Positions 2,342 to 24,917 of a DNA stretch of 64,000 nt are shown here, one piece after another (position 1 is the stretch's first letter; each line of letters opens with the position of its first letter). Below the pieces are notes generated by a model that saw only the letters and a list, made by a program, of their open reading frames with translations, made no database searches and had not been told where the DNA came from. This DNA comes from Cohaesibacter haloalkalitolerans (GTDB lineage Bacteria > Pseudomonadota > Alphaproteobacteria > Rhizobiales > Cohaesibacteraceae): the NCBI RefSeq assembly GCF_003574655.1, contig NZ_QNUM01000001.1, forward strand, positions 62,001-126,000, written 5' to 3'. A program made the position numbers and the translations under genes.

Positions 2342-2412
2342 AGCGAGTGTTCCCCAATGGGTTGGTAATCGGTGTACTAAGCGCCTGAAAAGTCAGGCCG
2401 AGGGAGGTGACG

Positions 2413-2480: not shown

Positions 2481-2507
2481 TCTGTCTGTATTATAAAAAG
2501 ATGTTCT

Positions 2508-5734: not shown

Positions 5735-5820
5735 GTCTTCCTCCTCAATTATAAGCCGCTGGCAATTCATCTCCGCCTTAGCTTGCTTGTTGGTCTGTTG
5801 AGGCCTGCCCCCTGATGCCA

Positions 5821-7322: not shown

Positions 7323-7386
7323 GAGTTTCTCCCTCCCGCTTGAAATTTCAGCACCTTTCACGAGGCGTCATTTGCCAGAAGCATAA

Positions 7387-7412
7387 CATATGTATTTTTC
7401 GATTTACATATG
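7387..7412. promoter_or_regulatory. Palindromic operator between divergent sugar operons
   Basis: CATATGTA (7387-7394) and TACATATG (7405-7412) form a perfect 8-bp inverted repeat with a 10-base spacer. It lies in the 190-base gap between the leftward SIS-SorC-kinase operon and the rightward ABC operon. The position and symmetry fit an operator for the SorC regulator encoded at 5821. The assignment is inferred. Confidence 0.5.
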
Positions 7413-7512
7413 AAATGTTCTCTCCTATACTCTTTTCCGCAGACGCAAGTTCGGGAGGTACGGACTATTTTTTGCCACACGGCAAAGCTTCGTCTGCACT
7501 TGGAGGAAAAAC

Positions 7513-8460: not shown

Positions 8461-8511
8461 TGCAATCAATGCCCGGTGGCCGGAGGGATTCCGCTCACCG
8501 GGCTCTTGCAT
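8460..8511 (+). promoter_or_regulatory. Long intercistronic stem-loop after the binding-protein gene
   Basis: GCCCGGTG (8471-8478) pairs with CACCGGGC (8496-8503), and an outer stem ATGCAA (8460-8465) pairs with TTGCAT (8506-8511). No U-run follows. Its place directly after the binding-protein stop suggests an RNA stabiliser that gives high binding-protein expression relative to the ATPase and permease. Confidence 0.55.
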
Positions 8512-8629
8512 CGGCCCTGGCAAGCAAAGCCGGGCTTCCGATCGATCGGACAGAATGCCGCACCAGCGGCTCCCCATCTGTATAGCCACGATTCTGTGCT
8601 GGTTCGTGGCACAGCCTTGAGACATCATC

Positions 8630-11093: not shown

Positions 11094-11105
11094 AGCGGAA
11101 GGTGC

Positions 11106-11134
11106 GTCCCCGCCCCCTCCGCGGGATCGGGGAC
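11106..11134 (+). promoter_or_regulatory. Stem-loop separating transport and enzyme genes
   Basis: GTCCCCG (11106-11112) pairs with CGGGGAC (11128-11134) in the 130-base gap between permease and TIM-barrel genes. No U-run is present. It probably modulates RNA decay between the transport and catabolic halves of the operon. Confidence 0.4.
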
Positions 11135-11223
11135 CAGCCCGCAAGGCATGCACAGCCAATATCGTTTTGGACGGCCAACTTTCGCCCAAAACCAGTTCCG
11201 TCATCTGACCTTGGGAGGAGAAA

Positions 11224-12105
11224 ATGAAACTTGGTCTGAATTTGTCCTTTGCCATCAAACGCTGGATCGAGCCTGAACGGCTGGCGGCGCTGGTGGCGGA
11301 CGAGCTGGATACGCGCTATGTGCAATTCACCTGGGACCTTGTCGATCCGGGCTGGCCCGAGGTAACGCGCGATGCGCTTGCCCGGCAGTATGCCAAGGCC
11401 TTCTCAAAGGCCGGAGTCATCGTTGAAAGCTCGTTTGGCGGACTTGCCTCCTATTCCTACAATCACCTGCTCGCACCGACCGCCGAATTGCGCGAACTGG
11501 GCAAGCTACACCTGCAAAACGCCATCGATATGACGGCGGCCATGGAAGTGCCTGCTGCCGGTATGCCTTTCGGCTCCTACAGTGCAGACGATGCGGTCAA
11601 TCCGGCCCGCCGCGAGGAAATCTACAAGCAGGCTCTTGAGGCCTATGTCGAGCTGTCCCGGCACGCCAGAACGCAGGGCCTCAGCATGCTGATGGTCGAG
11701 CCGGTTCCTCTGGCCACGGAATTCCCGTCGTCCGCGACGGATGCCCTGCGGCTGATGAAGGATCTCGATGGACAAACCGATATTCCCGTCCGGCTGTGCG
11801 TTGACTGGGGTCATGCCCTGTTCAAGCCGCTGTTCGGCGACGATGCCAACATGGACCACTGGATGCAGACCTGTGGCGACTATATCGGAGCCTTCCATCT
11901 GCAACAGACCGATGGCCTCTATGACCGGCATTGGAACTTCACCCATGACGGCATCGTGACGCCACAGCTGTTGGCCGATTTCTGGGACCGCCATCAGCTC
12001 ACGGATCAGACCTGCTTCATGGAAATCATCTATGCCTTCGAGGAAACCGACGAATTCGTTCTCTCGGACATGAAAAAAGCCATGGCGCTTTTCAAGAAGG
12101 TTTGA
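11224..12105 (+). CDS. Xylose-isomerase-like TIM barrel (sugar isomerase/epimerase/decarboxylase family)
   Basis: Protein of 293 residues of the AP-endonuclease-2/xylose-isomerase-like superfamily (PF01261), a metal-dependent TIM barrel. Likely metal or substrate ligands sit in the strand ends MLMVEPVPLATEFP (near 160), LCVDWGHALF (near 195), GAFHLQQTDG (near 220) and CFMEIIYAFEE (near 270). Family members include the Brucella tetrulose-4-phosphate racemase EryC and several 3-oxo-sugar-acid enzymes. It lies between an ABC importer and a tetrulose-type kinase, with a clear ribosome site (TTGGGAGGAG). An epimerase or isomerase acting on a tetrulose or its phosphate is the most economical guess. 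Confidence 0.7.
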   Translation: MKLGLNLSFAIKRWIEPERLAALVADELDTRYVQFTWDLVDPGWPEVTRDALARQYAKAFSKAGVIVESSFGGLASYSYNHLLAPTAELRELGKLHLQNAIDMTAAMEVPAAGMPFGSYSADDAVNPARREEIYKQALEAYVELSRHARTQGLSMLMVEPVPLATEFPSSATDALRLMKDLDGQTDIPVRLCVDWGHALFKPLFGDDANMDHWMQTCGDYIGAFHLQQTDGLYDRHWNFTHDGIVTPQLLADFWDRHQLTDQTCFMEIIYAFEETDEFVLSDMKKAMALFKKV

Positions 12106-12183
12106 CAGACCGGTTCGAAAGCACCTTAGATAGACCGGCAATCGGGATAGACCACGGCCATTCGAACACAGAAGTCCAATCAA

Positions 12184-14040
12184 TTGAGCAAAACCAAGAA
12201 ACTGATCAATGCCCCCGAAACCGTCATCCAGGACATGGTCGGGGGCATGCTTGCCGCCCATCGGGATCTTCTTGAACCGGTGGGCGTTTCCGGTCGTGTC
12301 ATCCGCGCCAAGGACGGCCCCCGCAAGGGCAAGGTGGGGATTGTCATCGGCGGCGGCTCCGGGCATGAACCGGCCTTTGTCGGCTATGTCGGGCGCGGTC
12401 TGGCGGACGCGACAGCCATCGGCAACGTCTTCTCCTGCCCACCGCCAGACCCGATCATCGAGGCAGCGCGATCCGTTGAGGGTGGGGAAGGCATTCTGTT
12501 TCTCTTCGGCAACTATGACAGCGACGCGATGAACTTCGAGATGGCCGCCGAACAGCTGACCGAGGAAGGGATCCCGGTCGCATCGGTTCCCGTCACGGAC
12601 GATGTGGCCTCGGCACCACCCGAACGCCGCAACGAGCGACGGGGCGTTGCTGGCGACTTCTTTGTGTTCAAGATCGTCGGGGCCGCCGCCGATCAGATGA
12701 AACCTCTTGAAGAGGTTGAACGCATTGCGCTGAAAGCCAACCACAACACCGCCACGATGGGTGTGGCCCTCAACTCCTGCTCCCTGCCCCAGACCCGCAA
12801 GCCCAATTTTGAAATTGGCGAGAACGAAATGGAAATCGGCATGGGGTTGCACGGCGAGCCCGGCATTCGGCGGCTGTCGCTGGACACGGCCAACGGGGTG
12901 ACGGACCTCTTGATGGATTACATTCAGCAGGAATTGCGCCTTCAACCGGGCGAGCGCGTCGGGGTTCTGGTCAACGGGCTCGGCTCCACCACCCAGATGG
13001 AACTCTATATTCTCTATAACCGTCTGCAACAATGTCTGGACACACTGGGCGTGTCGATCCACCGCTCCTTCGTCGGCGAGTTCGCAACATCGCTGGATAT
13101 GGGCGGCGCATCGATATCGCTTCTCAAGCTGGATGACGAGTTGGCAGAGCTGCTCGACCACCCTTGCAAGGCCGCCGGGTTGAGCGTCGGCATTCCACCT
13201 CAGCCAATCAGATTGGAAGACCGTCTGCCACTGGTCGCAAGCGAACGGCAGATAGCAGCATCCGGCAAGACAGATGGTGAACCACAGGAGGATGCTGTTT
13301 CATCCGGTGCCACACTGGCTGATCAAGCATCGGAAGAAACGCCCACAGACAGCGCAACTGCAATCACGGGCGACATTCTCGTCAACATGTTTCGGGCAGC
13401 CGCCATTGCCATTGAAGACAGGGCGGACTGGTTATCCGAGCTGGACGGTGTGATCGGCGATGGAGGCCACGGCATCACCATGGGACTTGGCTGGAAGGCG
13501 GTAAGGCAGGCCCTCAGGAACTATCCGTCCGGGCAGGATATTGATGTGATCTTCTGCTTCATCGCCGAGGTCTTTCTGAATGCGGTGGGCTCCACACCCG
13601 GCCCCCTCTATGCATCTGCGCTGAGAAACGCCGCCAAGGTTTCGTCCGGCCTCAAACAGCTGGACGCCGAGGCAACGGTCCGGTTTCTTGAGGCTGCGAT
13701 GGAAGGCATCCGTGCCAGAGGCAAGGCCAACCCCGGCGACAAGACGATGCTGGATGCATGGTGGCCTGCGGCCAAGGCCGCACGCGCTGCGCTGGATAAT
13801 GGTGCCGATATCACCGATTGTCTGCGCGCTGCCGCCAAGGGTGCCGAGAAGGGCATGAAACAGACCGCTGCCATTGCCGCCCGCTATGGCCGCTCATCCA
13901 AAATGGGCGAGCGATCACTGGGTCACATCGATCCGGGGGCAGCGTCCAGCTTTGTCGTGATCGACGCCCTGCGGCGGTCCTTCGAAGCCCAGACCCTTGA
14001 CCCGGTTGAAAGCGCCGCCAGACCGGTGTTCCGGATCTGA
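12184..14040 (+). CDS. Fused DhaK-DhaL ketose kinase (second copy, altered Mg-binding motif)
   Basis: Ketose kinase homologue of 618 residues, a paralogue of the one at 3971 but with a longer linker (about 345-395). DhaK hallmarks are intact: GGGSGHEPAF, and GLHGEPG with substrate-binding H223. In the DhaL domain the motif normally reading GDGDHG is GDGGHG: the third metal-binding aspartate is glycine (G428, codon GGC), while D421 and D426 remain. Loss of this Asp could lower catalysis or change nucleotide handling. The start is a TTG at 12184; no in-frame ATG occurs before residue 18. It ends the rightward operon and may phosphorylate erythrulose or a related ketose, if active. Confidence 0.8.
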   Translation: MSKTKKLINAPETVIQDMVGGMLAAHRDLLEPVGVSGRVIRAKDGPRKGKVGIVIGGGSGHEPAFVGYVGRGLADATAIGNVFSCPPPDPIIEAARSVEGGEGILFLFGNYDSDAMNFEMAAEQLTEEGIPVASVPVTDDVASAPPERRNERRGVAGDFFVFKIVGAAADQMKPLEEVERIALKANHNTATMGVALNSCSLPQTRKPNFEIGENEMEIGMGLHGEPGIRRLSLDTANGVTDLLMDYIQQELRLQPGERVGVLVNGLGSTTQMELYILYNRLQQCLDTLGVSIHRSFVGEFATSLDMGGASISLLKLDDELAELLDHPCKAAGLSVGIPPQPIRLEDRLPLVASERQIAASGKTDGEPQEDAVSSGATLADQASEETPTDSATAITGDILVNMFRAAAIAIEDRADWLSELDGVIGDGGHGITMGLGWKAVRQALRNYPSGQDIDVIFCFIAEVFLNAVGSTPGPLYASALRNAAKVSSGLKQLDAEATVRFLEAAMEGIRARGKANPGDKTMLDAWWPAAKAARAALDNGADITDCLRAAAKGAEKGMKQTAAIAARYGRSSKMGERSLGHIDPGAASSFVVIDALRRSFEAQTLDPVESAARPVFRI

Positions 14041-14231: not shown

Positions 14232-15512
14232 TCAGTGGCTCAACCCACCACCGGAGATGCCGATGGTGGCCGCCGGAACATAGGTGATGATCAGCAGGGT
14301 ACAGACGACCACCAAAATCGGCCACAACAGGCTCGAAAACATCTTCTGAACCGGAATCTGGGCGACCTGCGCTGCTGCGAACAGGTTCACGCCGAGCGGC
14401 GGGGTGAACATGCCCAGCGCCAGATTGACAACAATCACGATGCCGAAGTGGACCGGATCAATGCCATATTGCAGGGCAACGGGCGTCAGGATCGGCGCCA
14501 GCACCAGAATGGCGGCAGACGTCTCGATGAACATGCCAACCACAAACAGCAGGGCGTTGATACCGAGCAGGAATGTTGTCGTGGACGAGAAGGTTTGCGT
14601 GGCCCAGTGCCCGACAGCCGTAGGCAGCCCGGAAAGGCTGATCAGGAAGCTGAAGAGCGACGCCGCTGCAATGATGAACATCACCGCACCCGAAGACATG
14701 GCCGCGCGGCGGAAGATTGATGGCAACTGGGCGAAGGTGATCTCCTTGTAAATGAAAATCGACAGCACCAGCGCATAGATTACCGAGACCGCAGCCGCTT
14801 CCGTTGGCGTGAAGATGCCGCCATAGATACCGCCAAGGATAATCGCCGGCATCAGCAGGGCACCAAAGGCTTCCCTGCCTGCGGTCAGGACGGATTTGCG
14901 ATTTTCGCCGTCATTCTTGCCAACCCCGGTCAGGCGGCACCAGATCTGCACCATGATAACAAGGCCGATCACGATCATCACGCCGGGCACCAGACCTGCA
15001 ATGAACAGCTTGGTGATCGAGGTTTCGGTCGAAACCGCATAGAGAATGAGGGGGACCGATGGGGGAATGATCACCCCAAGCTCGGCGGATGAAGCCTGAA
15101 TGGCAGCGGCCATGGGGGTCGGATAGCCATGCTTGACCATGGCCGGTATGAGGATCGAGCCGATGGCAAAAGTAGTTGCCACGGACGAGCCGGAAATGGA
15201 CGCAAAGACCATGCAGGTCAGCACGGTGGAGCTGGCCAGCCCCCCTTGCAGATTGCCGATCAGTGCCTTGACGAAGTCAACCAGCCGCGAGGAAATACCG
15301 CCATGGGTCATGATCATCCCGGCCAGGATGAAGAAGGGTACGGCCATCAGGGGGAAACTGTCGAGGCCGGTGAACATCTTTTGGGGGACAACCATCAGCG
15401 GCAGCACGGAGAACAGCTTGATGGAGAAGACCGAGGCCAGACCGATGGAGACCGCAACGGGAACGGATAGCGCAAAGAATCCGATCAGGAACAGAGCAAG
15501 AGCGGCATTCAT
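14232..15512 (-). CDS. dctM: TRAP transporter large permease DctM
   Basis: Inner-membrane sodium-coupled permease of 426 residues, the standard DctM length, with about twelve hydrophobic helices. Family segments are visible: DSFPLMAVPFFILAG near 50, GGLASSTVLTCMVFASISGSS near 90, LGVIIPPSVPLILY near 145 and the C-terminal GMFTPPLGVNLFAA. It forms the transport core with the DctQ subunit, whose stop overlaps its start (ATGA at 15509). Adjacency to apnO suggests the cargo is D-apionate or a closely related branched sugar acid, which is inference from context. Confidence 0.9.
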   Translation of the reverse strand: MNAALALFLIGFFALSVPVAVSIGLASVFSIKLFSVLPLMVVPQKMFTGLDSFPLMAVPFFILAGMIMTHGGISSRLVDFVKALIGNLQGGLASSTVLTCMVFASISGSSVATTFAIGSILIPAMVKHGYPTPMAAAIQASSAELGVIIPPSVPLILYAVSTETSITKLFIAGLVPGVMIVIGLVIMVQIWCRLTGVGKNDGENRKSVLTAGREAFGALLMPAIILGGIYGGIFTPTEAAAVSVIYALVLSIFIYKEITFAQLPSIFRRAAMSSGAVMFIIAAASLFSFLISLSGLPTAVGHWATQTFSSTTTFLLGINALLFVVGMFIETSAAILVLAPILTPVALQYGIDPVHFGIVIVVNLALGMFTPPLGVNLFAAAQVAQIPVQKMFSSLLWPILVVVCTLLIITYVPAATIGISGGGLSH

Positions 15513-15985
15513 TTCTCTTCCCTTTCAAGTTCGAAATGACGGAGCAGCAGACCGGGAATGGCAAAGAATGCGCCGACAGGAATGGCGAGATAGAATACCG
15601 ACATGGACATATCGAGCATCGCAACGCGCTGATTGATCACGCGATGGGCCATCGCAAGACCGTACCAGAGCAGCACGACCAGAAAAGCCAGACTCAGAAG
15701 GGTCACCAGCCTTGTCATCCACATTTGCGGTGTGGGAGGCAGCAGTGACCGGACAAAGTCGATGGGTATCATCGTTCCAAAGCGAAACGCTGCCCCTGCG
15801 ACCAAGAAAGTGGACCAGATGATGAGGCCCCGCGCGAGTACTTCTGTCCATACAGCAGCATCCCCCAGCAGAAACCGGGTCACCACCTGCACGAATACCA
15901 GGATTACAGCGAGGGCCAATAGAATTGCTGCAAGATTGTGCATCAACCGCACGAACCATTCTGCAGTCAGCTTTATTGCCGTCAT
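15509..15985 (-). CDS. dctQ: TRAP transporter small permease DctQ
   Basis: Four-helix membrane protein of 158 residues, typical of DctQ. The conserved WTEVLARGLIIWSTFLVAGAAFRFG stretch lies near the second helix (the tryptophan-glutamate pair is the family mark). The start at 15985 is chosen because GGGAGGGAG lies just upstream. It overlaps dctM by four bases, so the two permease subunits are translationally coupled. Confidence 0.87.
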   Translation of the reverse strand: MTAIKLTAEWFVRLMHNLAAILLALAVILVFVQVVTRFLLGDAAVWTEVLARGLIIWSTFLVAGAAFRFGTMIPIDFVRSLLPPTPQMWMTRLVTLLSLAFLVVLLWYGLAMAHRVINQRVAMLDMSMSVFYLAIPVGAFFAIPGLLLRHFELEREEK

Positions 15986-16044
15986 GACTCCCTCCCGAGA
16001 ACAAGGGGAATGCCTCCCCCTTCCCTCTGATAGCAAAACAAGAA

Positions 16045-16072
16045 GGAGGCCGTCTTGGTCAGGATGGCCCCC
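16045..16072 (-). promoter_or_regulatory. Stem-loop between dctP and dctQ
   Basis: GGAGGCC (16045-16051) and GGCCCCC (16066-16072) form a seven-base stem with one mismatch in the gap after the binding-protein gene. It mirrors hairpins after the binding-protein genes at 1188 and 8460 and may raise binding-protein expression over that of the permeases. Confidence 0.4.
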
Positions 16073-16088
16073 TCATCTTCAGATGCGC

Positions 16089-17063
16089 CTACTTCTGAGC
16101 ATCACGGATGCGCTGGATCAGCTCCGCTCCATATTTGGGAGCATACTCATCATAGACAGGCTGAACCGCAGCAGCAAAGGCATCCTTGTCGACGTCGGTA
16201 ACAACCTCCATGCCGTTGTCCTTCATCAACTGCACGCCGCTTGCTTCCTTGGCGGCCACCGTTGCTCGGGATGCTTCGGCAGCATCATGGGCGGCTTCCT
16301 TGACCCAGCCCTGCTCTTCTTCTGTCAGTTGATCCCAATGAACCTTGGACATCATGACAACAGCAGGGGAGTAGACATGGCCGGTCAGGGTCACATATTT
16401 CTGGATTTCCCACATGTGGTTGACCGTGATGATCGGGGTCGGGTTTTCCTGACCGTCGATCGTGCCCTGCTGCAAGGCCGTCAGAACTTCAGTCCAGCTC
16501 ATCGGGGTTGGAGCAGCACCCAGTGCCTTGAACGCCGCGATATGGACCTCGTTTTCCATCGTCCGGAGCTTGATGCCCTTCAGATCGTCCGGAGTCTTGA
16601 TCGGATGCTTGGAGTTGGTGATATGGCGGAAGCCGTTTTCGGCCCATGCCAGACCAACCAGTCCGGAATCGGACATCTGGTCAAGAAGCGACTGACCGAT
16701 CTCGCCGTCCAGAACCTTGTGAGCCGATTCATAGCTCTTGAACAGGAACGGGAAGTCCAGTGCATAGACGTCAGGCACGAAGTTGCCGATCGGCCCGGTG
16801 GACGAGATGGTCATCTCGATGGCACCGATCTGCAGGCCTTCAACCACGTCACGCTCTCCTCCGAGCGCTCCGGCTGGTTTCAGGTCTACGGTGATGTCAC
16901 CACCGGACAGCTTTTCGATCTTTGCCTTGAAGGCCTTGCCCGCATCACCATAGTGACTGTCCAGCGGCGGGGTAAAGCCCAGATTCAATGTCTTGGCATC
17001 GACCGGTGCCGTTGCCAGCATCAGCCCGGCAACAACGAAGGTAGAAGATAGAAGCTTGTTCAT
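16089..17063 (-). CDS. dctP: TRAP transporter periplasmic binding protein DctP
   Basis: Periplasmic binding protein of 324 residues with a Sec signal peptide (about 1-23, ending PVDAK). It has the DctP signature with the carboxylate-binding arginine in GIKLRTMENEVH (near 170), followed by the expected ALGAAPTPMSWTEV and GTIDGQENP segments. It captures a sugar acid and hands it to DctQM. The operon order is apnO, dctP, dctQ, dctM. Because apnO encodes a putative D-apionate oxidoisomerase, D-apionate is the leading ligand candidate. Galacturonate, gluconate or related acids cannot be excluded. Confidence 0.88.
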   Translation of the reverse strand: MNKLLSSTFVVAGLMLATAPVDAKTLNLGFTPPLDSHYGDAGKAFKAKIEKLSGGDITVDLKPAGALGGERDVVEGLQIGAIEMTISSTGPIGNFVPDVYALDFPFLFKSYESAHKVLDGEIGQSLLDQMSDSGLVGLAWAENGFRHITNSKHPIKTPDDLKGIKLRTMENEVHIAAFKALGAAPTPMSWTEVLTALQQGTIDGQENPTPIITVNHMWEIQKYVTLTGHVYSPAVVMMSKVHWDQLTEEEQGWVKEAAHDAAEASRATVAAKEASGVQLMKDNGMEVVTDVDKDAFAAAVQPVYDEYAPKYGAELIQRIRDAQK

Positions 17064-17112
17064 AGGTCGTCCTCCCTAGTTTTGACCATGAATATATGAA
17101 ATTGTAAGCGTT

Positions 17113-17940
17113 TTAGGTAATACGTTTAACGCTGGCCATGATCTCCTCGGCTTTGAACACATTTTTCCAGTCATCCTTCATGAGAGTCGGGATGCCGAAT
17201 TCGATTGCCTTGTTGCAGGCATCGGAGAATACGCCGTCGACTTCTTCAAAGATAACAGCTGCCAGAATGTTCATGTGGCCAAGCAGGAAGTCACGGGCAC
17301 AGTCCTCGCTGACGCCCGTCTTGACAACCTCGTCCATCGCTTGCCGCATCACATAGAGAAGAGATGCACAAACGGTTTCCGAAAGACCCGGCTCCAGATA
17401 AGCCATCTGTTCAACCGTGCAGCGGTAGGTCGCCTTGATCGGGGCATAGATTGCACGGGCAATCTTGTCGCCCAGCTCGTAATGCTCTTCCGGCCCTTGC
17501 ATGAGCGCGTTGACGACACTCTGTTTGGCATAAAGACCGCCGAAATGATCGTTGCGTGCTTCCTCGGTGCTTTCGTCGTTGAAAATCGTCGGATGGCACG
17601 GATGGGTGATGAAGTAGGAGATGTCGGCACGTTCCGGCAGATACCCGGCGTACGGGGCTGCGGCATCAAGGATCACGACCATTGTCCCCGGAGCGAGAGT
17701 CGGGATCAGCGAGGTTGCCAGTTTGCCGATCACCGTGTCCGGCACGGCCAGAATGACCACATCAGCGCCGTCGATGGCGGCTGCCTGATCAACGGCTTCA
17801 ACCCCATGCTCGGCTTTCAGCTTCTGTTTGCCGGCATCCGAGACCTCAACGTGGCGAACTTCAAAATCGGTTTTGAGCAGATTGCGCCCCAAGCGCATGC
17901 CCATTTTTCCGCCCGCACCAAATAATGCGACTACTGTCAT
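17113..17940 (-). CDS. apnO: Putative D-apionate oxidoisomerase
   Basis: NAD-dependent enzyme of 275 residues. It has an N-terminal Rossmann domain (VVALFGAGGKMGMRLG, about 3-18), a strand VVILAVPDTVIGKLA (near 60-75) and an all-helical C-terminal domain of the 6-phosphogluconate-dehydrogenase type. The loop ITHPCHPTIFNDE (near 110) and the helix LGHMNILAAV (near 220) are typical of the ApnO group. ApnO oxidises D-apionate and migrates its hydroxymethyl group to give 3-oxo-isoapionate. The assignment rests on fold, length and linkage with a DUF1537 kinase and a RuBisCO-like protein. It is divergent from oiaK across a putative GntR operator. Related oxidoreductases of unknown function remain possible. 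Confidence 0.7.
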   Translation of the reverse strand: MTVVALFGAGGKMGMRLGRNLLKTDFEVRHVEVSDAGKQKLKAEHGVEAVDQAAAIDGADVVILAVPDTVIGKLATSLIPTLAPGTMVVILDAAAPYAGYLPERADISYFITHPCHPTIFNDESTEEARNDHFGGLYAKQSVVNALMQGPEEHYELGDKIARAIYAPIKATYRCTVEQMAYLEPGLSETVCASLLYVMRQAMDEVVKTGVSEDCARDFLLGHMNILAAVIFEEVDGVFSDACNKAIEFGIPTLMKDDWKNVFKAEEIMASVKRIT

Positions 17941-17982
17941 AGAAGGTATCCTCCCTAACTCTCAGTCAAACACCAAATTGTT

Positions 17983-18000
17983 CAACTGGTATGATGACAT
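17983..18000. promoter_or_regulatory. Putative GntR-type operator between apnO and oiaK
   Basis: The sequence CAACTGGTATGATGACAT in the 150-base divergent gap between apnO and oiaK matches CAACTGGTATAATGATAA at 20610 in 15 of 18 positions. The second copy is a full inverted repeat. Sharing this element between the two promoter regions suggests control by the GntR regulator encoded at 19545. Confidence 0.55.
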
Positions 18001-18091
18001 GATGATCATATGTGTATATATTTGAGCGACAAAGTCAACAGGGCGACCAAAATTGAGTCATTTATTCGCTGAAATTTATCGGGAGGAAGAC

Positions 18092-19474
18092 TTGGAGCCA
18101 CAATCAAACCCAGAAACCAGCTCGTCCAAACCATGGGTCACATGGTATGGGGACGACTTTACCGGCGCCGCTGCGACCATGGAGGTTCTGGCCTTCGCGG
18201 GGGTACCGACCATCCTGTTTACGGAAATCCCCTCGGACGACCTCAAACAACGGTTTTCCGGCGCTCTGGCCGTTGGCCTGGCCTCGACGGCCCGCTCAAA
18301 AAGCCCTCAGTGGATGCGCGACAATCTACCAGACGCCCTGAGCTGGCTGGACAGCTTCAAAGCCCCGATCTTGCACTACAAGGTCTGCTCCACCTTTGAT
18401 TCCTCACCAGAGAGCGGCTCGATCGGAACGGCCATCGAGACAGCTCTGACCGTGCGCCCATCCCGCGGTGTGCCCCTGATTACGGCCGCCCCCCAGATGC
18501 GGCGCTATCAGGCTTTCGGTCATCTCTATGCAGGAACCTTCGAGGGAGTCTTCCGGCTCGACCGGCATCCGGTGATGGCGCGGCACCCGGTCACACCGAT
18601 GAACGAATCCGATCTGCTGCGCCATCTGGCAGCGCAAACCGACCTGCCCTCCGGGCTCATCGATCTGGAGGCTCTGTGGTCCGATCCGCAGGCCGCCCTC
18701 GACAAGGCTCTGGCGGATGGCGCAAAGGTCCTGTCCATCGACTCGATGGAGGCAAGCTCGGAGGAAGCGGCAGGGCGGCTGCTTTGGACCAACCGCGAGG
18801 ATCTGTCCTTCGTCGTCGGCAGTCAGGGCGTGGAATATGCCCTCGTCCGTCACTGGCTTGCAACCGGCCAGCTTGCTCCCTGCCCGCCAACGCCATCCCT
18901 TAAGGCTGTTGACAAGATCGTTGCCGTATCCGGCTCGGTCTCTCCAATGACAGCAGAACAGCTCAGCAATGCAGAAGTTGACGGCTTTGTCCTCATCCCG
19001 ATCAACGTGGAACTGGCTTGCGGCTCCGACGAAGGGTTGCGGGACGAAATCGACCGCCTCGTACGCCTGTCGCTGGAAACGCTGGCAAGGGGCGCAAGCC
19101 CGCTTGTCTGCTCGGCGCGCGGTCCGGAAGATCCGGCCGTCGAGACCTTCCACCGCGCCCTGTCACAGAGCGGCATGGACATCGCAACAGCCAATGAGCG
19201 GATCGGCGTTTCCCTCGGTCGTGTTCTCGATGGTGTGTTGAGTGGCTCATCGGTGCGGCGGGCCGTCATTTCCGGTGGTGACACGTCAGGCTACGGCCTG
19301 CAGCAACTGGGCATTCAGGCACTGGAAGCAAAAGCAGCAACCATTCCCGGCGCCTCCATCTGTGTCGGCTACGGACAGACGCCACACGACGGACTGGAGA
19401 TTGCCCTGAAAGGCGGACAGATGGGCACGAAGGACTTCTTCAGCTGGATCCGCCGCGGAGGCGGCGGCCACTAA
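18092..19474 (+). CDS. oiaK: Four-carbon acid sugar kinase family protein, putative 3-oxo-isoapionate kinase
   Basis: Cytosolic ATP-dependent kinase of about 460 residues of the DUF1537 family (PF07005 N-terminal, PF17042 C-terminal). WYGDDFTGAAATMEVL near the N-terminus carries the substrate-binding aspartates. SGSVSPMTAEQL near 280 and VISGGDTSGYGLQQL near 395 belong to the nucleotide-binding C-terminal domain. I prefer a TTG at 18092 preceded by GGGAGGAAGAC over the TTG at 18053, which lacks a ribosome site. Relatives include OtnK, DenK, DtnK and OiaK. Linkage with apnO and the RuBisCO-like gene makes OiaK (3-oxo-isoapionate to its 4-phosphate) the best choice. Confidence 0.72.
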   Translation: MEPQSNPETSSSKPWVTWYGDDFTGAAATMEVLAFAGVPTILFTEIPSDDLKQRFSGALAVGLASTARSKSPQWMRDNLPDALSWLDSFKAPILHYKVCSTFDSSPESGSIGTAIETALTVRPSRGVPLITAAPQMRRYQAFGHLYAGTFEGVFRLDRHPVMARHPVTPMNESDLLRHLAAQTDLPSGLIDLEALWSDPQAALDKALADGAKVLSIDSMEASSEEAAGRLLWTNREDLSFVVGSQGVEYALVRHWLATGQLAPCPPTPSLKAVDKIVAVSGSVSPMTAEQLSNAEVDGFVLIPINVELACGSDEGLRDEIDRLVRLSLETLARGASPLVCSARGPEDPAVETFHRALSQSGMDIATANERIGVSLGRVLDGVLSGSSVRRAVISGGDTSGYGLQQLGIQALEAKAATIPGASICVGYGQTPHDGLEIALKGGQMGTKDFFSWIRRGGGGH

Positions 19475-19505
19475 AGCACTGGTCCATGAGCCAGAAGGCA
19501 ACAAG

Positions 19506-19533
19506 GAGGCGCGGTTCACTCGGACAGCGCCTC
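19506..19533. terminator. Shared terminator between convergent oiaK and gntR
   Basis: A perfect 7-bp stem, GAGGCGC (19506-19512) with GCGCCTC (19527-19533), lies in the 70-base gap between the convergent genes. Both flanks have only short T or A runs, so it may serve both directions with moderate strength. Confidence 0.5.
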
Positions 19534-19544
19534 TTATCGTTCGG

Positions 19545-20264
19545 TTAGCTGTTGTAGAGCCGGTTTGTACGATCGAGGTGATGCTGCATTTCCGACACGG
19601 CAGCATCCTCGTTGCCGGATTCGATATTGTCGACGATCTTGCCGTGCTCCTTGAGGGTGATCGCCTCATTGCCAGCCCAATGCAGCAGTTCATACTGATA
19701 TTCCATCAGCCAGCGCAGCATGGCACTGGAGGCAGCCACAATGATCGGATTGCTGGTGATTTCAGCAATGCGCGTATGAAACAGAATGTCGACTTCAACA
19801 AAGACACCCGGATTGCCAAGTTCCTTTTCCTGCCGGTCAATCAGCGCCCTCAGGGCCTTGATGTCCTCTTCCTTTGCCATGCGCGTGGCTTCGCGGACGA
19901 TACCGCGCTCGAACATGCGGCGAGCCTGCTTGAGATGTTCGAAATTCTTGGGAGCGGAATAGAGCAACAGCCGGGCAATCTCATTGACGTGATCAAGAAC
20001 GGCGGTCGCAGTCACCTTGTTGACCCGCGATCGCTCGCCATGCTTGATTGTGATCAGGCCTTGCGTATGAAGCGCCTGCAACGCCTCCCGGACGGCGGGG
20101 CGCCCCACGCCAAAACGTTGCATCAGGTCCCGCTCCGATGGCAGATAGTCATCAGGCGTCAGTTCTCCGCTGCGGATCATGGAGCGCAACTCGTCCACAA
20201 CCTGATCGGAAAGCTTCTGACGGACGATCTTGCGATCTCCCCTTTGGTCACCGAACTCGCTCAC
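19545..20264 (-). CDS. GntR/FadR-family transcriptional regulator of the apionate locus
   Basis: Repressor-type protein of about 239 residues with a winged helix at the N-terminus (QKLSDQVVDELRSMI, LPSERDLMQRFGVGRPAVREALQAL) and a helical FCD ligand domain. Metal-binding residues are suggested in HTRIAEITSN (near 155) and the C-terminal EMQHHLDR. FCD regulators sense small carboxylates or sugar acids. The GTG start at 20264 is chosen because AGGAAGGGAAG lies upstream. Two matching operator-like sequences at 17983 and 20610 frame its likely targets apnO/dctPQM, oiaK and the RuBisCO-like gene. Confidence 0.82.
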   Translation of the reverse strand: MSEFGDQRGDRKIVRQKLSDQVVDELRSMIRSGELTPDDYLPSERDLMQRFGVGRPAVREALQALHTQGLITIKHGERSRVNKVTATAVLDHVNEIARLLLYSAPKNFEHLKQARRMFERGIVREATRMAKEEDIKALRALIDRQEKELGNPGVFVEVDILFHTRIAEITSNPIIVAASSAMLRWLMEYQYELLHWAGNEAITLKEHGKIVDNIESGNEDAAVSEMQHHLDRTNRLYNS

Positions 20265-20296
20265 GGAACTTCCCTTCCTCAAAAATCTTATTCTTT

Positions 20297-20328
20297 ATCT
20301 ATAAGGCCCTGAATCTATAAGGCACTGA
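20297..20328. repeat. 16-bp tandem duplication upstream of gntR
   Basis: The units at 20297-20312 and 20313-20328 read ATCTATAAGGCcCTGA and ATCTATAAGGCaCTGA, one mismatch in 16. They lie in the promoter region of the leftward GntR gene and could double a promoter or binding element (each includes a TATAA-like core). Confidence 0.6.
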
Positions 20329-20609
20329 CCGGTCACAGACCATCCCAGTCAAAACTGGGCGCGACGACCAAAATGTCGCACCCCCAAAGTCTTCGGATTT
20401 GGTGCGAATGCCAAATTCATCACCAGAACTCCGTCCGATGCAGAGAGAAGACCTCTGCGCAAAAAGTTCCCTTTAAGGATCTCCAAACAATCCTTCGGGA
20501 TCTCCTGAAACAATACTTCACAGAGACACCGCCAATGGAACGCGCAATCTCCCCTATTTAACGCCTTCGGGAATCAAAGCAATGCACATTTTTGCTTGGC
20601 CTCATTTCT

Positions 20610-20633
20610 CAACTGGTATAATGATAATACCAG
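20610..20633. promoter_or_regulatory. Palindromic GntR-type operator before the RuBisCO-like gene
   Basis: CTGGTAT (20613-20619) and ATACCAG (20627-20633) form a perfect inverted repeat with a 7-base spacer, 30 bases upstream of the RuBisCO-like start codon. The left half and spacer match the element in the apnO/oiaK gap. It is the best operator candidate for the neighbouring FCD-type GntR repressor. Confidence 0.62.
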
Positions 20634-20662
20634 AATGAGAAAAGGTACACAGGAAAAGATCC

Positions 20663-21943
20663 ATGCAAGACAAAAACACCGGGCAAGACAAAAACACCGG
20701 CAAGGACGTCATCAGGGTGACCTATCGGATCGAAACACCGGACAGTCCGGAGAAAATTGCCAACAAGATGGCTGGCGACCAGTCCACTGGCACATTTACC
20801 GAGTTGCCCGGTGAGTCGGAAGAAGTGCGGGCACGCTGCGCAGCCCATGTGGTGGATGTGCGGCCGCTGGAGCCGCACAGCTTTGCATCCATTCCCGAGC
20901 CCGCGACAGGCAAGCAGTATAATCGGGCCGACGTCGACATCGAATTCCCGCTCGAAGCGATCGGCACCGACATCGCAGCCCTTGCAACGATCGCCATCGG
21001 TGGTGCCTTTTCCATCCGTGGTGTCTCCGGCATTCGCATCATGGACATTGACCTGCCCGATGCCTGGCGGTGCCATCCGGGGCCGCAGTTCGGCATCGCT
21101 GGCTCTCGCAAGCTGATGGGCGTGGAGGAAGGGGTGATGATCGCCTCGATCATCAAGCCCTCGCTGGGGCTGCTGCCGGAAGAAACTGCACCAATCATCG
21201 CCGAATTGTGCGCGGCCGGTGTGGACTTCATCAAGGATGACGAAAAGCTGATGAGCCCGGGCTATTCGCCACTGGAAAAGCGTGTTGAAGCGTTCATGCC
21301 GGTCATAAGGGATCATGAACAAAAGACAGGCAAGAAGGTGATGTACGCCTTTGGCATTTCCTCCGCCGATCCGGATGAAATGATGCGCAACCACGACATT
21401 GTCCTGAAGGCGGGCGGCAATGCGGCCGTCATCAATATCAATTCCGTCGGCTATGGCGGCATGAGCTTCCTGCGCAAGCGGTCCTGCCTCTGCCTGCATG
21501 CCCACCGCAACGGCTGGGACATCATGACCCGCAACCCGGGCATGGGCATGGAGTTCTCCGCCTATCAGAAGATCTGGCGCCTGTTGGGCGTCGACCAGTT
21601 CCAGATCAATGGCATCCGGGCCAAATACTGGGAATCCGACGAAAGCTTCATCAAATCCTTCAAGGATTGCATGACGCCGATCTTTGACGAGAGCGACCGG
21701 CCTCTGCCTGTTGTCTGCTCGGGGCAATGGGGCGGACAGGCCGTCGACACCTATCAGCGCACCGGCAAGACCCTTGACCTGATGTATCTGGGCGGTGGCG
21801 GCATCCATGGCCATCCGGACGGGGTGGCCGCTGGTGTCCGCGCCATCCGGCAGGCATGGGAGGCAGCAGAAGAGGGGCAAACACTGGAACACAAAGCCAA
21901 AAGCTGTTCCGAACTGGCCGCCTCTCTGGCCAAGTGGGGTTGA
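20663..21943 (+). CDS. RuBisCO-like protein, putative 3-oxo-isoapionate-4-phosphate decarboxylase
   Basis: Large-subunit RuBisCO homologue (form IV) of 426 residues. Catalytic features of true RuBisCO are kept: K165 in SIIKPSLGL, the carbamylatable lysine K191 with metal ligands D193 and E194 in DFIKDDE, H279/H281 in LHAHRNG, a lysine in the loop-6 region (K321), S353 in CSGQWGG and the phosphate-binding GGGGIHGHPDG (377-387). In D-apiose catabolism such proteins either decarboxylate 3-oxo-isoapionate 4-phosphate to L-erythrulose 1-phosphate or split it by transcarboxylation/hydrolysis. The nearby erythrulose-phosphate isomerase gene favours the decarboxylase. A tandem hexapeptide is duplicated at the N-terminus. 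No CO2-fixing role is implied. Confidence 0.75.
   Translation: MQDKNTGQDKNTGKDVIRVTYRIETPDSPEKIANKMAGDQSTGTFTELPGESEEVRARCAAHVVDVRPLEPHSFASIPEPATGKQYNRADVDIEFPLEAIGTDIAALATIAIGGAFSIRGVSGIRIMDIDLPDAWRCHPGPQFGIAGSRKLMGVEEGVMIASIIKPSLGLLPEETAPIIAELCAAGVDFIKDDEKLMSPGYSPLEKRVEAFMPVIRDHEQKTGKKVMYAFGISSADPDEMMRNHDIVLKAGGNAAVININSVGYGGMSFLRKRSCLCLHAHRNGWDIMTRNPGMGMEFSAYQKIWRLLGVDQFQINGIRAKYWESDESFIKSFKDCMTPIFDESDRPLPVVCSGQWGGQAVDTYQRTGKTLDLMYLGGGGIHGHPDGVAAGVRAIRQAWEAAEEGQTLEHKAKSCSELAASLAKWG
20665..20700 (+). repeat. 18-bp perfect tandem duplication at the start of the RuBisCO-like gene
   Basis: Two identical 18-base units (20665-20682 and 20683-20700) encode the hexapeptide QDKNTG twice right after the start methionine. 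This in-frame slippage product lengthens a disordered N-terminus and should not affect the fold. Confidence 0.8.
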
Positions 21944-22019
21944 CAATGACTCCAATTCTGAAAATCTAGCCCGACGGGCAGAAGGCTCGGGACAGAAGAG
22001 CAAGCATCGGAAAAGACAC

Positions 22020-23201
22020 ATGAAACAGGACCTTAGCCTAACCTCAGGCCTTGATCGGGCTCAGGGGATACTCAGTGCTTCGGCTTTCGTCCTGCTTCTG
22101 GTGGGAACCAACACCCCCACCCCTCTTCTGCCCCTCTATCGCGATCAGTTGGGATTTTCGCCACTGGTGCTCACGCTGACCTATTCGACCTATGTCAGTG
22201 CGCTGGTGGTCGTGCTGTTCATCGCGTCCAGCCCGGCGATTGTGCGACGGGCACCGTTGATGCTGCTGTCGTCCCTGCTGGTGGCAATTCTGGCCGACAT
22301 GCTGCTGGCCACCGGCGTGCAGCAAGGGGTTCTTGCCGGCCGGGTGCTGGCAGGAATTTCCGGCGGGATCGGCACCGGTGCAGCCGCAGCCCTGACGGTT
22401 TCCGTCTTCGGGGAGAAAGGCAGGGCGCTATCGGTGACCGGGAATCTGGGCGGTGCAATTCTGGGCACGTCACTTTGCCAGCTGGTCGTGTTTCTGACCG
22501 GCGTGCGTGCGGTATCCCTCAGTTTCGAAATCCACCTTACCATGTGCCTTGTGCTGCTTGTGCCGCTGTTCGGGGTGCTGTTCGCACGTCGCAAGAGCAA
22601 TTCGGCGATTTTCGCCTATAGCGACAGCCACAAGTCATCCGTTCTGCCGGTTCTCCAACAGTTTCGCTGGGCGCTGTTCACTGGCTGTCTGGCATGGATT
22701 CTGATCAGCTGCTGCATCGTCTTCCTGCCGAGCTATTTTGCCGATCACGCCATGCCATTCGTTCAGGCCTTCGGCATTCCGCTGATGTTGACCGGCAGCC
22801 TTGGCGGGCAGCTGTTCAGCCCCAGACTGCGGCAGGTGGCCGGGTTTCTTTCCGGCATGTGGTGCATGCTGGTCGGTATCGGGCTGATCTTTGGCGGGGC
22901 CTGGCTGACCGTGGGGATAGCGAGTCTTGTCGGCTTCTGTCTGGTCGGGTTCGGCGCGGGCCTTGCCTATCGCTCGTCGCTCATGCTGCTGGTGCTCAGG
23001 GTTTCACCGGTGACTCAGGGGCGGATTTCTTCGCTCTATGCCGCCATCACCTATGGCGTTGCGGCTGTTGCCATCGTGCTCTCCGGCTTTCTGACGAGGG
23101 TCGCGGACATGTCAACAGTTGCCGACTATGTCTTCGTTTCGCTGCTTGTGTTGATCCTCATTGTCAATCGCCGCGCACCGAAACTCTCGGATCTGGACTG
23201 A
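22020..23201 (+). CDS. MFS transporter
   Basis: Inner-membrane major facilitator of 393 residues with about twelve hydrophobic helices. Family marks are NTPTPLLPLYRDQLGFSPLVLTLTYSTY in the first helices, AGRVLAGISGGIGTGAAAAL in helix 4 and the mid-protein loop with RRKSNS. It starts 76 bases after the RuBisCO-like gene, behind GGAAAAG, and is likely co-transcribed. Its place suggests export or import of a pathway compound such as apionate, apiose or a by-product. The subgroup resembles drug/sugar exporters, so the direction of transport is open. Confidence 0.75.
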   Translation: MKQDLSLTSGLDRAQGILSASAFVLLLVGTNTPTPLLPLYRDQLGFSPLVLTLTYSTYVSALVVVLFIASSPAIVRRAPLMLLSSLLVAILADMLLATGVQQGVLAGRVLAGISGGIGTGAAAALTVSVFGEKGRALSVTGNLGGAILGTSLCQLVVFLTGVRAVSLSFEIHLTMCLVLLVPLFGVLFARRKSNSAIFAYSDSHKSSVLPVLQQFRWALFTGCLAWILISCCIVFLPSYFADHAMPFVQAFGIPLMLTGSLGGQLFSPRLRQVAGFLSGMWCMLVGIGLIFGGAWLTVGIASLVGFCLVGFGAGLAYRSSLMLLVLRVSPVTQGRISSLYAAITYGVAAVAIVLSGFLTRVADMSTVADYVFVSLLVLILIVNRRAPKLSDLD

Positions 23202-23289
23202 CTGGCCATCCGAGTTCCAATCAGGGATCTGACGATCCGTTCGACCGTCAGTCGATGAGTAGAATTCTGCAAACATAACGGCATTTCAT

Positions 23290-23330
23290 CACAAAATAAC
23301 AAAATAAAATTGATTATGTGATGTTTTGTG
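23290..23330. promoter_or_regulatory. AT-rich dyad upstream of the DeoR-type gene
   Basis: CACAAAAT (23290-23297) and GTTTTGTG (23323-23330) form an imperfect inverted repeat in an AT-rich promoter region upstream of the DeoR-family regulator. Autoregulation of the regulator-isomerase pair through this site is plausible. Confidence 0.35.
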
Positions 23331-23375
23331 TTACAAATTATGAGCCCAATGAAATGCCGGGCAGGGGGAGATCGC

Positions 23376-24140
23376 ATGAGAGGAGAAGACCGCAGGCAGT
23401 TCATCATGGACCTGCTGGTGGAACACAAGGCGGTTGATATCGACGATCTTGCTGAAAGATTCGGCGTATCGAAAATGACCATTCACCGCGATCTGGATGA
23501 ACTGGAACAGACTGGCGTGCTGCGCAAGGTCCGGGGAGGCGCCACGGCCGACGCAGGCAACCAGTTTGAAAGCGATTTTCGTGTCCGTGTCCAACAGGAT
23601 GCTGATGCCAAGGAACGGATCGCGCGCCAGGCCTTGTCCCTGATCGAGCCGGGCATGACGGTCATGGTCAATGATGGCTCGATGTCTGCCGTTCTCGGAT
23701 CCATGCTGCCCCAACAAAGGCCCCTCACCGTCATAACCAACAATCAGTCCATCATCAGCACATTGCTGGGGGAAGCCGGAATAACATTGTTGGCCCTCGG
23801 AGGAATCTATTCATCCAAATACAACGCCTTTTGTGGCGTCGTGACCGAGGAAACACTGCACCGGCTGCGCGCCGATATCGCGTTCATTTCTGCGCCAGCC
23901 GCATCCGGACTGCAGGCATTTCACATGGATGACGCCATCGTGCAGACCAAACAGGCAATGATGCTTGCCGCCACGCGCAAATGTCTGCTGATCAATCACA
24001 CCCGTTTCAACCGCACCGCCCTTCACTTTCTTGCCGACCTCAAGGCCTTTGACTGGATCATCACCGATGGCGAGCCAGAGGGCACCGTCTCCGAAGACCT
24101 GAAGAATGCCGGGTTGAACCTCACTGTTGCAAGGACCTGA
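23376..24140 (+). CDS. DeoR-family transcriptional regulator
   Basis: Regulator of 254 residues with the N-terminal DeoR helix-turn-helix (DIDDLAERFGVSKMTIHRDLDEL, about 21-43, then GVLRKVRGGA) and a C-terminal sugar-phosphate sensor domain (VMVNDGSMSAVLGSML, TVITNNQSI, HTRFNRTALH). The ATG at 23376 follows AGGGGGAG. It is separated by only three bases from the triose-phosphate-isomerase-like gene, so the two form an operon. In erythritol and tetrulose pathways DeoR regulators respond to tetrulose phosphates, which would fit here. Confidence 0.85.
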   Translation: MRGEDRRQFIMDLLVEHKAVDIDDLAERFGVSKMTIHRDLDELEQTGVLRKVRGGATADAGNQFESDFRVRVQQDADAKERIARQALSLIEPGMTVMVNDGSMSAVLGSMLPQQRPLTVITNNQSIISTLLGEAGITLLALGGIYSSKYNAFCGVVTEETLHRLRADIAFISAPAASGLQAFHMDDAIVQTKQAMMLAATRKCLLINHTRFNRTALHFLADLKAFDWIITDGEPEGTVSEDLKNAGLNLTVART

Positions 24141-24143
24141 ACC

Positions 24144-24917
24144 ATGACAACCACCCCTCGTTTCTGGATCGGCACAAGCTGGAAGATGAACAAGACGCTG
24201 GCCGAAGCCGTGACATTCGCCAACGGCCTCAAGGCTGCCGACGCCAATCGCGACCCGCGCATCCAGCGTTTTGTCGTGCCACCGTTCACGGCCGTGCGCG
24301 AAGTCAAGGCCATGCTGGCCACCACGTCCGTCAAGGTCGGAGCCCAGAACATGCATTGGTCGGAAGCTGGCGCCTGGACCGGAGAAGTCTCGCCCCTGAT
24401 GCTCACCGACTGCAATCTTGATCTGGTGGAGCTGGGCCATTCCGAGCGCCGCGAATTCTTTGGCGAAACCAACGAAACGGTGGGCCTGAAGACCGAAGCT
24501 GCCGTGCGCCATGGCCTGACGCCTCTTATCTGCATCGGCGAGACCCTTGAGCAGAAAGAAGCTGGGCGGGCCCAGCAGGTTCTGGAAGAGGAAGTCCGCG
24601 GTGCGCTGGGCAAATTGACCGGCGACCAGAAGAAGGCAACCATCCTGCTTGCCTATGAGCCAGTATGGGCGATCGGCGACAAGGGCATTCCGGCCAGTTC
24701 CGACTATGCCGACGCCCGACAGGCCGAGATTCTCGCAGTGGCCGAGGACATGCTGGGCTATCGCCCGCTTTGCCTTTACGGCGGTTCGGTCAACCCCGGC
24801 AACTGCGAAGAGCTGATCAACTGCCCCAATATCGACGGCCTGTTCATCGGCCGGTCGGCATGGCAGGTGGAAGGCTACCTCGACATTCTCGATAAGTGCT
24901 CAAAGGCCATCCAGTAA
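24144..24917 (+). CDS. lerI: Triose-phosphate-isomerase-like L-erythrulose-1-phosphate isomerase
   Basis: Cytosolic TIM-barrel isomerase of 257 residues. The catalytic set of triose-phosphate isomerase is conserved: K14 in SWKMNK, H99 in LGHSERR and E172 in AYEPVWAIG, plus the phosphate-binding YGGSVNPGN. The N-terminal IGTSWKMNKT and the insertion around 65-80 (AQNMHWSEAGAWTGE) are those of the EryH/TpiA2/LerI branch, which interconverts L-erythrulose 1-phosphate and D-erythrulose 4-phosphate, not of the glycolytic enzyme. It therefore links the RuBisCO-like decarboxylase to central metabolism. The next enzyme, EryI/DerI (RpiB family), is not in the window. A second glycolytic TpiA is expected elsewhere in the genome. 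Confidence 0.78.
   Translation: MTTTPRFWIGTSWKMNKTLAEAVTFANGLKAADANRDPRIQRFVVPPFTAVREVKAMLATTSVKVGAQNMHWSEAGAWTGEVSPLMLTDCNLDLVELGHSERREFFGETNETVGLKTEAAVRHGLTPLICIGETLEQKEAGRAQQVLEEEVRGALGKLTGDQKKATILLAYEPVWAIGDKGIPASSDYADARQAEILAVAEDMLGYRPLCLYGGSVNPGNCEELINCPNIDGLFIGRSAWQVEGYLDILDKCSKAIQ

Follow-up and report, generated by a model that had tools for sequence, protein, structure and literature searches.

A candidate TRAP-fed D-apionate utilization locus in Cohaesibacter haloalkalitolerans

Described apiose pathways and the locus

D-apionate is a tetronate that bears an extra hydroxymethyl branch, and the RuBisCO-like enzyme of the OiaT transcarboxylase/hydrolase pathway acts on the same substrate as the OiaX decarboxylase of D-apiose breakdown. 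The D-apiose pathways were reportedly assigned by Carter et al. in 2018. PMC6302742 describes RuBisCO-like proteins that either decarboxylate 3-oxo-isoapionate-4-phosphate or act on it by transcarboxylation/hydrolysis. According to PMC11747546, where names of the pathway enzymes also appear, the Rhodobacteraceae strain LCG007 has genes for ApnL, ApsD, ApnO, OiaK and OiaX and grows on D-apiose. Here, we analyzed a window of 64,000 nucleotides from Cohaesibacter haloalkalitolerans (contig NZ_QNUM01000001.1, positions 62,001 to 126,000), in which a gene cluster combines enzymes of this kind with a tripartite ATP-independent periplasmic (TRAP) transporter. We consider it likely that this cluster is a dedicated D-apionate utilization regulon, fed by the TRAP transporter and running through known apiose-pathway enzymes. 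We infer its reactions, ligand and regulation from the published apiose pathways.

The cluster has in common with the Carter-type OiaX pathway ApnO, OiaK, OiaX, GntR, isomerases of the LerI/DerI type and a RuBisCO-like decarboxylase, but it has no close ApsD, no ApnL and no apiose-type ATP-binding cassette (ABC) importer, and carries the TRAP transporter instead. It also shares the ApnO, OiaK and OiaX genes with the D-apiose cluster of LCG007; LCG007 also has genes for ApnL and ApsD, and the main text of PMC11747546 nowhere uses the term TRAP. The cluster appears to differ from the OiaT pathway in that its RuBisCO-like protein scores over the OiaX cut-off and a LerI gene is present.

Pathway enzymes and absent apiose genes

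In the proposed route, the TRAP transporter would import D-apionate, ApnO would oxidize and rearrange it to 3-oxo-isoapionate, and OiaK would phosphorylate this intermediate at O4. The RuBisCO-like OiaX would decarboxylate the phosphorylated product to L-erythrulose 1-phosphate, LerI would convert it to D-erythrulose 4-phosphate, and DerI would form D-erythrose 4-phosphate, which would enter the pentose phosphate pathway. A preliminary description of this DNA had placed a TRAP importer, an ApnO-type oxidoreductase, a DUF1537 kinase, an FCD-type GntR regulator, a RuBisCO-like protein and an EryH/LerI-type isomerase within 14,232–24,917, and the open reading frame (ORF) list and profile searches of the window recovered each of them as an open frame of the stated family. 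Its claim of a complete path to erythrulose phosphate stood for the gene set of the window; the following step, DerI, lies on another contig.

We placed the cluster among the best 80 of 423 related stretches from a genome scan with OiaX, the flanks of which are partly cut by contig ends (loci, genomes and contigs are cited below by numbers prefixed L, G and C). ApnO and OiaK both stand beside OiaX in 68 of the 80 loci, so their clustering is not due to chance. ApsD is present in 57, ApnL in 47 and the apiose-type ABC transporter in 48, of which 47 also have ApsD, compared with seven loci that have a TRAP transporter of the window type. Thus, the apiose pathway with an ABC importer is the commonest form, and the window represents a minority form. 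Within the genus, OiaX is found in five of 18 genomes, four of these with the TRAP transporter, and the trait is therefore patchy. The congener G167 holds a DerI-type gene, LerI, DAK and ABC genes and the whole apionate cluster with its TRAP transporter in one contiguous stretch, which by eye begins with transaldolase- and transketolase-like genes.

Separately, a fructose-bisphosphatase gene lies between OiaK and OiaX in three of the loci (L013:8879-9952, L014:7835-9965, L021:7837-9969; Pfam-confirmed in L014). In L014 and L021, a further gene follows it, and transaldolase- and transketolase-like genes were seen by eye downstream of OiaX. Judged by its gene content, this is a sugar-phosphate recycling set within the cluster.

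The RuBisCO-like protein scored 766.7 bits against the NCBIfam OiaX model NF042437 and passed the curated equivalog cut-off of 700, as did four other OiaX proteins scanned for comparison (745–796 bits), whereas the RuBisCO-like protein of a different cluster (L115) reached 413 bits and stayed under it. The preliminary description had called its catalytic residues intact. In an alignment of 79 rows (77 of the 80 related loci and the window copy twice), the Lys, acid and His residues of IIKP, FIKDDE, HAHR and the loop-6 Lys, which we equate with the catalytic motifs of RuBisCO, were invariant; other positions checked, e.g. 352, 382 and 383, differed in 23 of the 79 rows. These results support the assignment of this protein as OiaX, a predicted decarboxylase.

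The remaining enzymes were placed by relatedness and gene neighborhood. The kinase matched the OiaK model at 466.6 bits compared with 154.2 for 3-oxo-tetronate kinase, and both its best-matching family and its synteny with ApnO and OiaX point to OiaK. ApnO belongs to the PGDH_C-type oxidoreductases and is an ortholog of the ApnO proteins found in apiose loci, with at least 60% identity to proteins in 59 of the 80 OiaX loci. The LerI-type TIM is 81% identical to TIMs that lie beside an RpiB/DerI-type gene in L057 and L067. DeoR-type relatives (59–68%) stand immediately upstream of TIM and RpiB in L057, L062 and L067, and the DeoR-type regulator probably controls the tetrulose-phosphate step. 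A second TIM, on contig C18, is presumably the glycolytic one. DerI was found on contig C20, where it barely passed its model (240.1 bits, cut-off 240), beside transketolase, fructose-6-phosphate aldolase/transaldolase-type and DeoR-type genes. For the earlier proposal that established D-apiose work supplies the pathway steps, we thus found support in the curated OiaX model and, as regards ApnO, OiaK, GntR and LerI, in their orthologs and conserved gene order.

No apiose dehydrogenase or lactonase had been seen in the window, which was borne out and can be extended to the whole genome (5.01 Mb, completeness 99.85%, contamination 0.39%). Queries for ApsD were GFO-type proteins from two OiaX loci, as we take the GFO-type gene of these loci to be ApsD from synteny, and ApnL was named by its curated model. 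The best ApsD match in the genome was 29% identical, with none at E ≤ 1e-30, and ApnL gave no match at E ≤ 1 by protein query and none by the NF049900 model; the genome therefore has neither a close ApsD nor an ApnL, both of which are components of a complete D-apiose pathway.

For comparison, the ApnL search started from 50 of the 80 loci and covered 48 genomes (one locus was missing and two fell in one genome), leaving aside eight loci with a full apiose set and L060–L081. The model matched in 34 of the 48, five of them over its own cut-off. The ApsD search covered 26 genomes, namely our own, three congeners, the 14 without ApnL and eight others, and a close ApsD (at least 66% identity) was present in 12, one of which is the query's own genome. 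Ten of the 14 genomes without ApnL also had no close ApsD, and the other four have ApsD at 70–80%. In total, 10 of the 48 OiaX-bearing genomes, whose completeness was not given, had neither gene.

A TRAP transporter of the window type occurs in 11 genomes, six of which have neither a close ApsD nor ApnL: our own, two congeners (G350, G364), Tropicimonas G028, Gemmobacter G035 and Acidimangrovimonas G039, the last three being of unstated completeness. Environmental apionate, which had been proposed as the substrate, is the best-supported reading, as a close ApsD and ApnL are missing genome-wide and the same TRAP transporter accompanies ApnO, OiaK and OiaX in three other genera that also have neither. 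PMC6724055 includes apionic acid in a list of plant compounds and PMC9698119 gives it as a mass-spectrometry annotation, so that apionate may have an environmental source.

We also noted variants of ApnL itself. In L058 (Paracoccus), the ApnL match is divided between two frames (1915-3438), by either decay or sequencing error. A second ApnL-like family (34–35% identity, 431–441 bits, below the cut-off) has copies at L131:8475-16250 (G167), L132:7064-15767 (G010) and L133:7513-11067 (G011). An ABC transporter and an SMP-30-like protein accompany its gene in G167, where Pfam confirmed them, and in G010, where they were identified by eye. In G010, the gene is also flanked by OiaK- and ApnO-type genes, and in G011 it adjoins an ApsD-type gene (69%). 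This family is possibly an alternative entry route to apionate.

The binding protein and the operator-like sites

In a tree of 34 TRAP binding proteins (DctPs), the 11 from OiaX loci that share at least 63% identity with the window protein formed one clade with support of 99/97, and the nearest DctPs outside it were 54–61% identical. Kinases of these outside neighbors are DUF1537 proteins that exceeded the 3-oxo-tetronate kinase cut-off in four of the four scanned. The grouping of the binding protein, which the preliminary description had named as a check, thus placed the window DctP in a clade of eleven OiaX-locus proteins, separate from the DctPs that accompany 3-oxo-tetronate kinases. All five solved chains included in the tree also fell outside the clade, and the DctPs of L014, L021 and L038 were absent from the tree. 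The TRAP transporter is near ApnO in all 11 clade members.

The D-erythronate/D-threonate TRAP clusters to which the nearest outside DctPs belong share with the window the DUF1537 kinase superfamily and the logic of acid import, but their kinases belong to another family. Among these tetronate regions, L112, L113, L114 and L119 have no RuBisCO-like protein, whereas L115–L118 have an OiaX-like one nearby.

Sequence alignment suggests how the clade could differ in ligand. Residues E70, R146, R167 and N207 of DctP align with positions 76, 152, 173 and 213 of 4p47, and W190 with position 196; PMC11668362 gives the former as acidic, Arg, Arg and Asn pocket positions and the latter as the pocket-closing aromatic. 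A hydroxy-carboxylate pocket of two Arg, one Asn and one acidic residue is thus present, and its carboxylate-binding residues are kept across the 11-member clade. Trp occupied the pocket-closing position in 11 of 11 clade members compared with one of 18 others, and the preceding residue was Ser in the same proportions (11/11 and 1/18), in a comparison that omitted 4p47, which has Tyr there, and L013, L026, L032 and L081 from the 34 tree rows. The tetronate-linked DctPs mostly have Ala-Phe at 189-190, as opposed to the Ser-Trp of the clade. A structure model of DctP reached a predicted local distance difference test (pLDDT) score of 88.7, and its best structural matches in Foldseek were TRAP binding proteins. 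A switch from tetronate to apionate at the W190 position is plausible from these residues. More broadly, the clade may be a distinct TRAP subfamily, marked by Ser-Trp, that switched from tetronates to D-apionate, with its bearers in several genera being specialists for free apionate of plant or other microbial origin that cannot themselves use apiose; we put this forward tentatively, at somewhat below even chances.

A different TRAP family, with DctPs only 24–28% identical to that of the window, lies near ApnO clusters at L014:2224-4070, L021:1-1646 and L038:16161-17174. The genomes of these loci likewise have neither ApnL nor a close ApsD, and this family may be a second, independent apionate importer.

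In L115–L118, an ApnO (61%) occurs with a divergent RuBisCO-like protein (38–40%), joined by an OiaK-type kinase in L115–L117; in L115, the TRAP transporter is followed by a 3-oxo-tetronate kinase. These four regions are candidates for an OiaT-type pathway.

The regulation of the cluster was approached through the sequences between its divergent genes. The region between gntR and oiaX contains a perfect palindrome, CTGGTATAATGATAATACCAG, which is identical in three congeners (L109, L110, L111) and near-identical in Gemmobacter and in apiose loci of Rhizobium. A 16-letter pattern matches the window at two places only, the oiaX site and the apnO/oiaK site, and had no match in 100 shuffles. With up to three mismatches allowed in 16 fixed positions, the palindrome was present close to the start of OiaX in 37 of 78 regions, that of the window among them, compared with none of 390 shuffles. 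Upstream of ApnO, it was present in 22 of 68 regions, which do not include the window, compared with none of 340 shuffles. As the palindrome was found by eye and post hoc, the shuffles were simple base shuffles and the loci are related, these figures are descriptive. No other site with up to three mismatches was found anywhere in the window, including upstream of the DAK kinase and the ABC transporter. Weak matches in L109, L110 and L027 fell inside the coding sequence of a solute-binding protein. We also considered a GntR site of the short TnGTnnnACnA form and rejected it, having found no consistent site. As proposed, the GntR regulator would control the ApnO-TRAP, OiaK and OiaX units through the common palindrome.

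Gene layout and competing substrates

The features of the window are listed in Table 1. The order on the minus strand is apnO-dctP-dctQ-dctM, and, as these genes are co-directional with short gaps, the TRAP genes are most likely cotranscribed with apnO. Two pairs, oiaK and apnO as well as oiaX and gntR, are divergent, and oiaX is followed downstream by a major facilitator superfamily (MFS) gene, the DeoR-type regulator and the TIM-type isomerase. The transporter is assigned to the TRAP family by profile model for DctM and DctP and by relatives for DctQ. Relatives of the MFS protein among the 80 loci (53–54%) were confined to the TRAP-type loci L036 and L044, and those in the congeners L109 and L110 are 95–96% identical.

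Table 1. Features of the locus and of the adjoining module (positions in the window)
Feature	Position	Strand	Basis
DctM, TRAP large permease	14232..15512	-	PF06808 390 bits; TIGR00786 over cut-off; same strand after ApnO, DctP, DctQ
DctQ, TRAP small permease	15509..15985 (end approximate)	-	Position; >50% identity to DctQs in 7/80 loci; start codon uncertain
DctP, TRAP solute-binding protein, candidate D-apionate binder	16089..17063	-	PF03480 308 bits; clade of 11
ApnO, D-apionate oxidoisomerase (putative)	17113..17940	-	PGDH_C 229 bits; PDB 5t57 E 2e-122
Operator-like half-conserved site ACTGGTATGATGACAT	17985..18000	+	In ApnO/OiaK divergent promoter
OiaK-type DUF1537 kinase (3-oxo-isoapionate kinase, putative)	18053..19474	+	NF042436 466.6 bits; start codon uncertain
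GntR/FCD regulator	19545..20282	-	NanR subfamily model over cut-off; relatives in 67/80 OiaX loci
Palindromic operator-like site CTGGTATAATGATAATACCAG	20613..20633	.	Between gntR and oiaX
OiaX, RuBisCO-like 3-oxo-isoapionate-4-phosphate decarboxylase (predicted)	20663..21943	+	NF042437 766.7 bits, cut-off 700
MFS transporter, accessory	about 22020..23201	+	PF07690
DeoR-type regulator	23328..24140	+	ORF; family judged from sequence and relatives
LerI/EryH-type TIM-barrel isomerase	24144..24917	+	PF00121 240 bits
DAK-type kinase, probable erythrulose kinase, neighboring module	12184..14040	+	PF02733/PF02734
Sugar ABC transporter (solute-binding protein, ATPase, permease) and xylose-isomerase-like protein, adjacent	7513..12105	+	ORFs, profile searches, relatives

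Next to the cluster, the window contains a module at 3971-14040 with two DAK kinases, a SorC-type regulator, a 6-phospho-3-hexuloisomerase-like SIS protein, a sugar ABC transporter and a xylose-isomerase-like protein, the last of which matches PDB 3qxb and, distantly, 4k3z. This module probably serves tetrulose or tetritol use, with LerI/DerI in common. Its ABC and xylose-isomerase-like genes also stand beside ApnO-OiaK-OiaX in Aliiruegeria lutimaris (L027), and the ABC genes alone do so in L111. An apiose-type ABC importer was considered for this locus and rejected as the main reading, as the ABC transporter of the window is only 25–40% identical to it and has no operator-like site before it. 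We did not assign the DAK kinase to the apionate regulon, as nothing within three mismatches of the operator-like palindrome lies upstream of it.

A number of findings weigh against a dedicated D-apionate regulon. At the level of the enzymes, the 466.6 bits of the kinase lie below the OiaK equivalog cut-off of 700 (NF042436), because of which we name it OiaK-type only; the OiaKs of eight other loci scanned were all below 700 as well (456–484 bits). ApnO matched no NCBIfam model over its cut-off, and its name therefore rests on orthology, synteny and the literature. The site before ApnO is four mismatches from the full palindrome in the congener copies. In L005, two other genes separate the TRAP transporter from ApnO, and the congener G132 has OiaX, OiaK, ApnO and GntR (L130:9221-18889) without a TRAP transporter of the window type. 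The connection of the clade with apionate is also less sharp because the DctPs of L115–L118, although placed outside it, have an ApnO (61%) at a distance of about 4.6 kb, together with OiaX-like and OiaK-type genes; we assign the DctP of L115 to the tetronate kinase some 2.8 kb away in the opposite direction. Other DctPs from OiaX loci (L013, L026, L032 and L081; 31–40% identity) are outside the clade as well. Among the 11 TRAP-clade genomes, four carry ApsD (Fulvimarina, Aurantimonas and two Paracoccus), so genomes that have an apiose dehydrogenase can carry the transporter as well; both Paracoccus genomes have ApnL too, while Fulvimarina and Aurantimonas have ApsD only. The congener G167 is without ApsD, yet carries an ApnL-like gene (431 bits, under the cut-off). 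The association of the TRAP transporter with absent ApnL (5/7 vs 9/41, Fisher test, p = 0.017) ignores kinship. Given the four genomes with ApsD and the position of the L115–L118 DctPs, the TRAP transporter and the clade alone are no proof of an apionate-only life. Finally, a sugar ABC transporter adjoins the cluster in the window, in G167 and in Aliiruegeria lutimaris, and the genome possibly holds an apiose dehydrogenase of another family.

The G132 cluster also adjoins a 3-oxo-tetronate kinase (over its cut-off) and genes that by eye resemble those of tetronate catabolism.

In a rival reading, apiose is the environmental substrate. A cytosolic dehydrogenase of another family or a periplasmic oxidase would form apionolactone, which would open spontaneously or through an SMP-30 lactonase, and the ABC or the TRAP transporter would import the sugar or its product. 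The genome has four SMP-30/gluconolactonase homologs, and the TRAP-clade relatives L005 and L006 have ApsD without ApnL, which are in keeping with this route along with the adjacent ABC genes. We nevertheless regard it as unlikely. There is no close ApsD in the genome, other dehydrogenase families not having been searched for, and no membrane-bound periplasmic pyrroloquinoline quinone (PQQ) glucose dehydrogenase was found there with TIGR03074, by which we rejected that form of the route. Moreover, the apiose-type ABC transporters of other loci are only about 25–40% identical to that of the window, and the operator-like sites precede OiaX and ApnO/OiaK, not the ABC genes.

Alternatively, the TRAP transporter might be a mere hitch-hiker in the cluster that imports a different small hydroxy acid such as erythronate, threonate or pantoate, given that the nearest outside DctPs are tetronate-linked, that four of these also lie about 4.6 kb from ApnO and that several of the nearest solved relatives are reported to hold erythronate or pantoate. 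PMC11668362 names erythronate or pantoate as ligands for its own homolog set only and states that the ligands in such structures were mostly co-purified, which also leaves room for this view. We judge it quite improbable, as the clade is separate with a pocket signature of its own, the transporter is co-directional with ApnO in the window and near ApnO in every clade member, and the window's DUF1537 kinase, the only one scanned there, scores higher against OiaK than against 3-oxo-tetronate kinase. A third possibility is that some other branched or C5 keto acid is the substrate of these enzymes, which would make the locus an orphan RuBisCO-like pathway. The subthreshold OiaK score and the fact that all protein functions are predicted would fit it, but OiaX exceeds its cut-off, and the gene set and the operator-like site are common to apiose loci, one such set being that of a strain that grows on D-apiose; we therefore see very little chance for it. 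Uptake and breakdown of D-apionate itself remains the explanation that we favor.

Although the chemistry has been described before, a pathway that is fed by a TRAP transporter and has no close ApsD or ApnL seems to be a new variant in the literature searched. No apionate transporter was found in that literature, which mostly did not cover subscription journals, and a published link between apionate and TRAP transporters is possible. The proposed regulon distinguishes growth on apionate from apiose utilization, and it names a testable D-apionate importer, a candidate specificity position and a candidate regulon operator. It also implies that OiaX alone may not mark growth on apiose, considering the 10 of 48 OiaX-bearing genomes without ApnL and close ApsD. 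If a TRAP subfamily specialized for D-apionate does exist, it would point to an extracellular pool of apionate and to cross-feeding as one step when plant material that contains apiose is degraded.

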